Source: Verrucomicrobiota bacterium (GTDB taxonomy: Bacteria; Verrucomicrobiota; Verrucomicrobiia; Chthoniobacterales; UBA10450). Taken from it: a stretch of 62,350 nucleotides of DNA. The notes under the pieces are model-generated. The model was not told where the DNA came from. It saw only the letters and a list, made by a program, of their open reading frames with translations, and did not search any database. Shown here piece after piece: positions 8,763 to 11,962 of the stretch. Numbering within the stretch: position 1 is the stretch's first letter; each line of letters starts with the position of its first letter. A program made the position numbers and the translations under genes. The DNA is taken from positions 1 through 62,350 of the forward strand of contig QHPY01000174.1 in the NCBI GenBank assembly GCA_003219215.1. Reading direction: 5' to 3'.

Positions 8763-9188
8763 TTAGGCCGAACTCGTGCGAGCGCGATATTTTTCCCAAT
8801 CGGCCGGTAGCGGCAGCAATTTCGCAGCCGGCATTTCAATTAGGGCCAACGTTTGCCGACATTCGGTGATCAATGCGTCATCCGCTGGCCGCGTAATTCG
8901 GAAAGCGCACCAGAATCGCGCGCGTTGCAGTTGATCAAGCCAACCATCGATCACGAGTCGGTCGCCCAGCTTAGCCGCCCGGCGATAATCGATCTCCGTC
9001 CGGACAACCACCGGATATCTTTGGGTTTTCCTCATCTCGGCGAGAGGAAGTCCCAGCTCTTCCGCAAGCTGCGTCCGCGCGATTTCGATAAAACGGAGAT
9101 ACGCAATGTTCGAGACCACACCGCCGCAATCGGTGTCGAAGAACATCACCTGCACTTCGGTTCGGATGCGTGGCGCGTCGGAATTCAT
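8763..9188 (-). CDS. Acyl-CoA thioesterase, YbgC / 4-hydroxybenzoyl-CoA thioesterase type
   Basis: 141 residues, hot-dog fold. The motif [18 protein letters not shown] fits the family pattern with the catalytic aspartate. It hydrolyses an acyl-CoA or acyl-ACP thioester; the substrate is unknown. ATG 9188 overlaps the stop of the upstream fusion gene as ATGA, so translational coupling is likely; the longer frame to 9245 is rejected for that reason. Position between lipid A acyltransferase and GT39 genes suggests a link to envelope lipid synthesis. Confidence 0.85.
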
Positions 9189-11098
9189 CGCAAGATAGAC
9201 ATCACGGCATCCACGACTTCTGGCACAGTCACTGTTTTCATGCACCGAAAATCAATCGGACATTCGCGCAAGAAACACGGACTGCATTCAACGTGATGCC
9301 GAATAATCACGTGGCCATTTCCGAGCGGGCCGGTCAGCGCCGGTTCGGTCGAGCCGAAGATGGCAGCGACTGGCACACCCAGCAACGTCGCCAGATGCAT
9401 CGTTCCGGTGTCGTTCGTTAAAAGGGCGCGGCACCCGCGCAATTCTTCGATCAATTCGTCCAACGTCGTTTGGCCGATTCGATTCGAGCAATTGTCGCCC
9501 AGCGCCGCAGCTATTGTTTCGCCGATCGCTCTGTCTTTCTTCGTTCCGAACAAAATCCATTTGGTTTTGGCTTGCGCCGAAATCGCGGCGGCTGCTTCCG
9601 CAAAACGCTCGGGCAACCATCGCTTGGCTGGTCCGTATTCCGCTCCGGGACAAAGGCCGAGCGTTGCGCGTCGATCTTGTGGAGGGACATGCTTCTGCAT
9701 GTCCAAGACGCGCGGAAGCGCGTCCCTCCGAGCAAGATCGACATCTGCCCCGCAATCGTCCGCGATTCGCAGGAAACGAGTCGCGTGATGTTCCGGTGGA
9801 CCTGGCTGACGCGGTTCGCGGACGATTTGATTTAGCAGCCAGCTCCGGGCGTGTCCGCGATAGCCGACTTTTCTCGGAATTCGCCACGCTTCCAGCGCTA
9901 CCCGCAGCGAATTCGGAAACAAGACTGCCGCGTCAAATCTTGCTTGTCGCGCGATCAAGCGAGCGGCGCTGAAAAGGGATTTGTTAGGTAAGGACAAAAT
10001 TTCGTCCACTTCCAAAATCAGTTTCCACATCGGCGCGATTTTTTCTGGCGCAAGAATCGTAACGTGCGCGTCCGGCCGACCTTTTTTTATTGCGCGCACC
10101 GCCGGCACGCTCATGACCGCGTCGCCTAGCCAATTGCTGCTCCGAATGAGAATCCGGAACGGCTTCAATTGTTGCGACGGCAAATCTTTCGGGAGGAAGA
10201 TGCCGCGCTTGTAGCACGCGAGAAGGAAATTCGGGCGCGGCGTTTTCCAACGATTGTGCAGCCAAAAGCCGTCTTCCGGTGCGCGTCGGGTTTGGGTTTC
10301 GATCAGATCGTTCGCTTTGGCGGTGAGCGCTTCGACCGAATCGCCCGAAGTATCGATTCGATCGGTAAACGACATTCGCCAGCGGCCCGGCGCGTCGGTG
10401 TAAATGGCGGTGCCAAGCACCGCGGCGCCGGTGCGTTTTGCCAGTAGCGCCGGCAAGGATGTGGTTGATGCGAGTTTTCCAAAAAATGGGACCCACAGAC
10501 CCTGATCGCCCGCGTGTTGATCGCTCAGAATTCCGATGGCGCCGCCGCCACGCAACAGTTCAATCGCTTTCTGAAAACCTTCGTTGCGGTCGAAAAGTTC
10601 GACGCCAGCGCGGCCGCGCAACGTGCGAACGTGTTTGTCGATGTAACGATTTTTCAGCGGCTGATAAATTGTGCTGTTTCGCACGTAGCCGATCGCAGCC
10701 GGAAACATTTGTGCTTGCAGCTCCCAGTTTCCGATGTGGCTCAAAATAAAAACAATCGGCCGCCCACTGCGTAACTCGCGATCGGCGGCATCCGCATTTT
10801 CGATTCGAACATGCGCGCGCACTTTGTCGAGCGGCATCGCCGCCAGCTTCAATCCAGAAAGAAGATTTGCGCCCAGTCGCTGAAAATGATGGCGCACGAG
10901 ACGGCGCATTTCGCGGGGCGATTTTTCCGCGCCGAAGGCGATCTCGACGTTATGAAATCCGAGACGCCGATATTTCCCAAGAACGAGCCAGGCGCAGAAG
11001 CCCAACGCGTTTCCAAGTGCAAATGCAGCCCGCAATGGCAAAAGACCAACCAGGGCAAAACCTGCGCGGTAAATAAGATAAACGAAATACTCGAGCAT
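9185..11098 (-). CDS. Fused lipid A acyltransferase (LpxL-like) and heptosyltransferase (GT9, WaaF-like)
   Basis: 637 residues. Residues 1-300 are a lysophospholipid-type acyltransferase with an N-terminal membrane anchor and the HIGNWE motif (H121, E126) of the LpxL/LpxM family. Residues 313-637 are a GT9 glycosyltransferase: RSSNWLGDAVMSVPAV at the start and LCPGAEYGPAKRWLPERF, then TNDTGTMHLATLLGVP and FGSTEP, as in heptosyltransferase II. One polypeptide would therefore acylate lipid A and add a core sugar. A 73-bp palindromic element is inserted in frame and encodes residues 453-477. ATG 11098 (MLEYFVYLIY) is chosen over an upstream ATG at 11314 that would overlap the divergent cupin gene. 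Confidence 0.85.
   Translation of the reverse strand: MLEYFVYLIYRAGFALVGLLPLRAAFALGNALGFCAWLVLGKYRRLGFHNVEIAFGAEKSPREMRRLVRHHFQRLGANLLSGLKLAAMPLDKVRAHVRIENADAADRELRSGRPIVFILSHIGNWELQAQMFPAAIGYVRNSTIYQPLKNRYIDKHVRTLRGRAGVELFDRNEGFQKAIELLRGGGAIGILSDQHAGDQGLWVPFFGKLASTTSLPALLAKRTGAAVLGTAIYTDAPGRWRMSFTDRIDTSGDSVEALTAKANDLIETQTRRAPEDGFWLHNRWKTPRPNFLLACYKRGIFLPKDLPSQQLKPFRILIRSSNWLGDAVMSVPAVRAIKKGRPDAHVTILAPEKIAPMWKLILEVDEILSLPNKSLFSAARLIARQARFDAAVLFPNSLRVALEAWRIPRKVGYRGHARSWLLNQIVREPRQPGPPEHHATRFLRIADDCGADVDLARRDALPRVLDMQKHVPPQDRRATLGLCPGAEYGPAKRWLPERFAEAAAAISAQAKTKWILFGTKKDRAIGETIAAALGDNCSNRIGQTTLDELIEELRGCRALLTNDTGTMHLATLLGVPVAAIFGSTEPALTGPLGNGHVIIRHHVECSPCFLRECPIDFRCMKTVTVPEVVDAVMSILR
9670..9745. 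mobile_element. Palindromic element inserted in frame in the acyltransferase-heptosyltransferase gene
   Basis: Outer inverted repeats GTCGATCTTG (9670-9679) and CAAGATCGAC (9733-9742) are copies of the iterated motif core. Inside are GGAGGGA (9681-9687) and TCCCTCC (9723-9729), then two perfect hairpins: GGACATGC-ttct-GCATGTCC (9685-9704) and GACGCGC-ggaa-GCGCGTC (9707-9724). The whole is a nested cruciform. On the coding strand it stays open and adds about 25 residues just before the conserved LCPGAEYG block, a linker in other heptosyltransferases. It resembles in-gene palindromes known from Rickettsia; origin by insertion is inferred. Confidence 0.8.
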
Positions 11099-11224: not shown

Positions 11225-11962
11225 ATGAACAAGAAAGATTTGTGGGTCGGCCTGAATGAGCGCGCAAGAAAAGGGCTCACACCGCGCAACTACAAAAGCG
11301 GCACCCTCGGCCAACGAATCGCTGAATCAGGTGTCGATGCGGGCGAGCTGACCGCCAGTCGCAGCAAAACAGAGTTGAAAAAAGTTTGGATTCCAGGTGT
11401 TGAAATTTTTTCCAGGGAGACTCATCCGCAACGCCATCGCGGCAGTTTTTGCGAGCTGGCGCGCCAGTCGGAGGGAATCCTCGGCAAGATCAAGCTTTGG
11501 CCACGGCAATGGTCAGCCGCGCGGATGTTCGCCAACAGCGCCAAAGGATTTCATATCCATCCGCCGAGCATTCCGGCGGATACGACGGCGGAAAAATGGT
11601 TGCGACGTCTGTTTGTCGCTCAACCGCAAAACTATTCGTTGCGACTGTACGACCGCGAGCAATGGGACATCATGTTTTTTCTACAGGGCCGCGCGGAAGT
11701 TTTCCTGCGTGATGTGCGCGCAGGTCTTCCCGCGCGCAGCATGCGTTTTTTTGCGGACGGCGACAATCATCGGAGCAGGAACAACGTCGGCGTGGTGATT
11801 CCTCCAGGAGTGGCGCATGCGATTCGGGCCGAAGGTTCGGAAGACGTGGTCATGGTTTATGGCACGAGCACGACGTTCCAGCCAGAATTCGAGGGCCGCA
11901 TCGCCAGCGAAATTGAAACCGCCGAGTTGCCGGAATCCTGGCGGAAATTTCTTTCTTCGTAG
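11225..11962 (+). CDS. Cupin-fold protein, RmlC-like
   Basis: 245 residues. From residue 54 the sequence (VWIPGVEIFSRETHPQRHRG, then IHPPSIPADTTAEKWLRRLFV, YDREQWDIMFFLQGRAEV, VVIPPGVAHAIRAEGSEDVV) has the strand and His/Gly pattern of the cupin fold of dTDP-4-dehydrorhamnose 3,5-epimerase relatives. The catalytic activity is not certain. The first 50 residues are not family-like, so a later start (for example TTG near 11373) is possible; ATG 11225 is kept because a good promoter lies upstream. Confidence 0.6.
   Translation: MNKKDLWVGLNERARKGLTPRNYKSGTLGQRIAESGVDAGELTASRSKTELKKVWIPGVEIFSRETHPQRHRGSFCELARQSEGILGKIKLWPRQWSAARMFANSAKGFHIHPPSIPADTTAEKWLRRLFVAQPQNYSLRLYDREQWDIMFFLQGRAEVFLRDVRAGLPARSMRFFADGDNHRSRNNVGVVIPPGVAHAIRAEGSEDVVMVYGTSTTFQPEFEGRIASEIETAELPESWRKFLSS

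Follow-up and report, generated by a model that had tools for sequence, protein, structure and literature searches.

Positions 9670-9742 of the 62,350-nt stretch of Chthoniobacterales DNA analysed here (the window) form a 73-bp palindrome that is translated in frame within a lipopolysaccharide gene, and its outer ends resemble a short motif, AAGATCGACA, which recurs throughout the genome. An earlier note had read the whole palindrome as one mobile element with the motif as its ends, and the motif as a possible target site or footprint of such elements. The locus raises the question of whether one repeat system or two meet at this site. The palindrome was found to consist of two parts of different origin, a REPIN core and a pair of outer arms (Table 1).

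Table 1. Coordinates of the features discussed (window positions unless a locus is named)
Feature	Position	Strand	Basis or remark
Fused lipid A acyltransferase/heptosyltransferase II gene	9188..11098	-	TIGR02195, 200 bits; PF03279; PF01075
Hypervariable linker between the heptosyltransferase halves	9653..9745	-	Begins near DVDL, ends shortly before LCPGAEYG
Outer arm GTCGATCTTG	9670..9679	+	Close to the iterated motif, but its complement CAAGATCGAC continues with GCG rather than A; read as host sequence
49-bp REPIN, two inverted GGAG-tagged REP hairpins	9681..9729	.	Family match, 48 of 49 bases the same as in the L136 copy
REP halves of the REPIN	9681-9704; 9706-9729	forward; reverse
Outer arm CAAGATCGACATC	9733..9745	+	Complete iterated motif; minus strand codes for DVDL; read as host sequence
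RAYT gene with GGAG-tagged REPs on both sides	L041:860-1673 (G017 contig 91)		NF047646 match
Solitary RAYT gene, own genome	L132:317-793 (contig 20)		No REPs near

The palindrome and its host gene

The structural description given in the earlier note was confirmed. The outer repeat GTCGATCTTG (9670-9679) has its exact complement, CAAGATCGAC, at 9733-9742, GGAGGGA/TCCCTCC is nested within, and both perfect hairpins, GGACATGC-TTCT-GCATGTCC and GACGCGC-GGAA-GCGCGTC, are present. The computed folds of the region were far more stable than those of dinucleotide shuffles, both as DNA (-30.4 versus a mean of -14.1 kcal/mol; z -6.9; 0/200 shuffles) and as RNA (-51.2 versus a mean of -26.9 kcal/mol; z -7.1; 0/200 shuffles). 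The coding (minus) strand is open through the palindrome, and the residues 453-477 assigned to it are correct if translation begins at MLEYF. The open frame is weak evidence, because most copies of the repeat in relatives are open in four to six of the six frames.

The gene was taken to start at MLEYF; the mechanical open reading frame begins at 11314, and the stop codon occupies 9185-9187. The two enzymes are fused in one frame, and orthologous open frames alike in length (mostly 630-710 residues) occur across the order. On either side of the linker, dN/dS against congeners is about 0.1; this is a between-species measure, and the purifying selection behind it may predate the insertion. Judged by this value and by its full length, the gene looks functional, though not specifically since the insertion.

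By sequence, the linker corresponds to the unconserved stretch right before CPGAEFG of E. coli heptosyltransferase II (PDB 1psw). Measured from CGAD to LCPG, it comprises 31 residues here, 26-27 in all five congeners and 20-35 across 28 orthologues. The palindrome hairpin occurs in none of these 28, and the linkers of other lineages hold unrelated sequence. Specifically, heptamer repeats were found in G018 (L070), other simple repeats in G013 (L072), G001 and G005, and the iterated motif, elsewhere within the linker, in G010 (L075) and G022 (L073). Because other lineages hold other repeats there, the linker is a tolerant site.

A GGAG-tagged REPIN family in related genera

REPINs and their association with REP-associated transposases (RAYTs) have been defined previously (PMC3116915, PMC6006769). 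The core at 9681-9729 has this structure, with two closely spaced inverted REPs able to form hairpins; in each REP, a GGAG tag leads into a GGAC...GTCC hairpin. In relatives it belongs to a dispersed multi-copy family, whereas its own genome holds a single copy; neither further copies of the REPIN family nor a second copy of the 73-bp unit was detected there. A search of 39 relatives returned many copies, with the match covering just the inner ~50 bases. By pattern search, REPs were present in 35 of 83 genomes of the taxonomic family (127 in G051, 99 in G048, 94 in G015, 51 in G024 and 28 in G042, for example), and the five congeners had none. Additionally, an exact search for the doublet in 84,980 public genomes returned five stretches, all from Verrucomicrobia/Spartobacteria/Chthoniobacterales MAGs. 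One of them, L136, belongs to another genus and differs from the window copy at one base of 49. By sequence identity, the core is a member of a REP family that is frequent in genera of this Chthoniobacterales family other than its own.

The tag is GGAG throughout the family rather than the canonical GT[AG]G foot, which is usual but not universal, as atypical REP feet exist (PMC6006769). The family resembles REPIN/BIME elements moved by RAYT (TnpA-REP) in its inverted REP hairpins, 5' tetranucleotide tags, unit length (~49 bp), multiple copies in relatives and, in G017, flanking of a RAYT gene; it differs in the tag, in the solitary copy in its own genome and in having no REP-flanked RAYT there. 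A 2013 study described REPs and REP dimers that lie in frame within genes and code for 20-30 residues; it found the most in Opitutus terrae and suggested flexible linkers as neutral landing sites (PMC3733652). The present case shares with the GTAG REPs of O. terrae the phylum, in-frame REP dimers within genes and a location in a linker, the kind of site suggested there as tolerant, but it involves another tag and family, and here the linker was replaced with a small net gain. The in-gene location is therefore not new, and because GGAG departs from GT[AG]G, the family represents a modest variant. The likeness in logic to the in-gene palindromes of Rickettsia also holds, since in both a palindrome is translated in frame within a protein. 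Unlike the Rickettsia elements, which occur many times per genome and add to proteins, this one is a single RAYT-type REP doublet in a linker that was already variable.

In G017, REPs of the family directly flank, on both sides, a gene matching NF047646 (REP-associated tyrosine transposase) above its curated cut-off. This locus has the classical REP/RAYT arrangement and, on sequence grounds, ties these REPs in a relative to a Y1 transposase. The search for such a transposase proposed in the earlier note also found one RAYT-like gene in the own genome, but no family REPs surround it; because they are absent, the resident RAYT may be non-cognate to the REPIN.

Another REP-like hairpin, GGAGGGACATGCGCCGTCGTGTCC, occurs twice with identical sequence in the own genome (L033 and L034, positions 1501-1524; contigs 8 and 149). 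Hairpins related to it, GGAGGGAC...CCGTC, occur in G004, G012 and G018.

Outer arms and the iterated motif

The GGAG boundary of the element family lies interior to the motif arms, which are separated from the REPIN by 1 and 3 bp. At the position of the 9733-9745 arm, DVDL is kept in 5/5 congeners, and the three closest ones (G002-G004) read GTCGATCTAG on the coding strand; at the position of the 9670-9679 arm, the coding strand of the same three reads CAAGATC. Congeners without the REPIN thus carry both proto-arms, an imperfect inverted pair that the gene had with no element present. Among 85 distinct REP copies at the loci compared in relatives, none was accompanied by the motif (≤1 mismatch) in the 30 bp beyond the GGAG end. 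The comparison with the empty site establishes a host origin for both outer arms, and the proposal that the motif forms the ends of the element fails. The perfect arms would have developed from the prior quasi-palindrome in the gene (GATCT.G ... CAAGATC), with gain of the motif favoured by the genome and copying between the arms as two candidate routes.

The motif itself is strongly iterated, as the earlier note had recognized. In the 2.33 Mb of the own genome, 1016 copies were counted, 506 on one strand and 510 on the other, against 0 for the reversed control; G016 contains 4653. These statistics were derived from genome searches and a 417-kb sample of the own sequence, and exact 10-mers of the form AAGATCGACA[T/A]C were counted (window examples at 460, 3479, 12204, 13282 and 43143). 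The motif is mainly intragenic, chiefly in frames reading KID or VDL; genera g2, g3, g7, g8, g10 and g11 have it at background level or close to it. Its abundance is comparable to that of uptake sequences or HIP1 (cf. PMC4390886), and a literature search on the motif in Verrucomicrobia returned nothing.

Across the 83 genomes, REP and motif abundance were anticorrelated (Spearman rho -0.55, with a significance inflated by shared ancestry). Five or more REPs were found in 1 of the 42 genomes whose motif count reached 150, versus 17 of the remaining 41. Deposition of the motif by REPINs is disfavoured because motif-rich genomes are REP-poor. With this anticorrelation and the 0/85 count, the footprint proposal was rejected, and a target-site role is putative at most. 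Inverted motif pairs (gap <90 bp) were also considered as a recurrent structure and rejected: the 417 kb contained one outward pair, at the palindrome site, and two in the opposite orientation, at or below the density expectation. The motif is more remarkable than the palindrome and, as a separate matter, merits its own study.

Probable replacement of the linker and arrival of the REPIN

The palindrome was said to add about 25 residues, but the net gain is only about 5 (31 versus 26-27 in the five congeners), so that of the Rickettsia-type features the frame is kept and the added residues are few. Subtracting the REPIN leaves a linker of ~14 residues, below the minimum of 20 among the 28 orthologues. 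Because this remainder is shorter than the linker of any orthologue, replacement within the hypervariable linker fits better than simple insertion. The distance between the arms is ~41 nt in congeners and 53 nt here, with a further 3 nt gained downstream. Most likely, judging from these lengths, most of the prior linker was replaced rather than 25 residues inserted; an unusually short linker in the direct ancestor would allow a simple insertion.

We therefore propose, with a probability of about 0.85, that a GGAG-tagged REPIN entered the hypervariable linker of heptosyltransferase II and replaced most of it in frame. Approximately 41 nt of linker would have been swapped for ~53 nt, with the REPIN supplying ~17 linker residues. 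It would be tolerated because the linker lies between the enzyme's two halves, separating them, and is free to vary in length and sequence. A RAYT, either resident or in a donor, may have made the original insertion, the adjoining linker being lost afterwards; alternatively, a short patch of foreign DNA may have carried the REPIN in. The REPIN most likely does nothing for the host except supply a linker; we infer a lack of adaptive function.

Short-patch entry of foreign DNA is a type of event in natural transformation, although the literature searched gave no confirmation of it. Under such a scheme, REPIN-bearing foreign single-stranded DNA would have annealed at short homologies and replaced part of the linker, with the motif as a putative uptake sequence. 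This scheme is unlikely, although the linker was replaced rather than enlarged, the REPIN family is otherwise missing from the genus, a ComEC gene is present, and the motif has the abundance of an uptake sequence on both strands. However, no donor with matching flanks was found, and control searches showed ComEC-family genes to be common and unspecific. In its fuller form, AAGATCGACA would serve these soil Verrucomicrobia as a DNA uptake sequence, and the REPIN would be a short foreign patch, brought in by natural transformation, that took the place of the linker between two motif-like sites; this version is considerably more doubtful.

The stable RNA hairpin computed for the transcript might suggest that it was kept because it does something useful, for instance by adjusting how the LPS gene is translated or how stable its mRNA is; we regard this as very improbable, given that no orthologue has the hairpin and that other lineages fill the linker with unrelated sequence. 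The one-element reading, in which the 73-bp unit including its arms is mobile and the motif its target site or footprint, is slightly less credible still. It draws on the close spacing of arms and REPIN and on the 1016 genomic copies of the motif, but the unit has no second copy in the genome, REPs elsewhere lack the adjacent motif, congeners already have both arms, REPs and motif are anticorrelated, and inverted motif pairs are rare. Some residues are alike between the own linker and those of congeners (RDA, VL, HV and QD), as local mutation without any element would leave, yet 48 of 49 bases match a dispersed repeat in another genus, which makes this origin negligible.

Two repeat systems that seemed linked at one site are now separated. 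What stands of the original proposal is a mobile-type palindrome, in frame in an LPS gene and of the class moved by REP-associated Y1 transposases; the motif as part of the element does not. Element footprints are thereby removed as one possible origin of the abundant AAGATCGACA motif. The locus provides what appears to be a clean case of a REPIN domesticated as the linker of an LPS enzyme, and a GGAG-tagged REP/RAYT family is documented in uncultured soil Verrucomicrobia.
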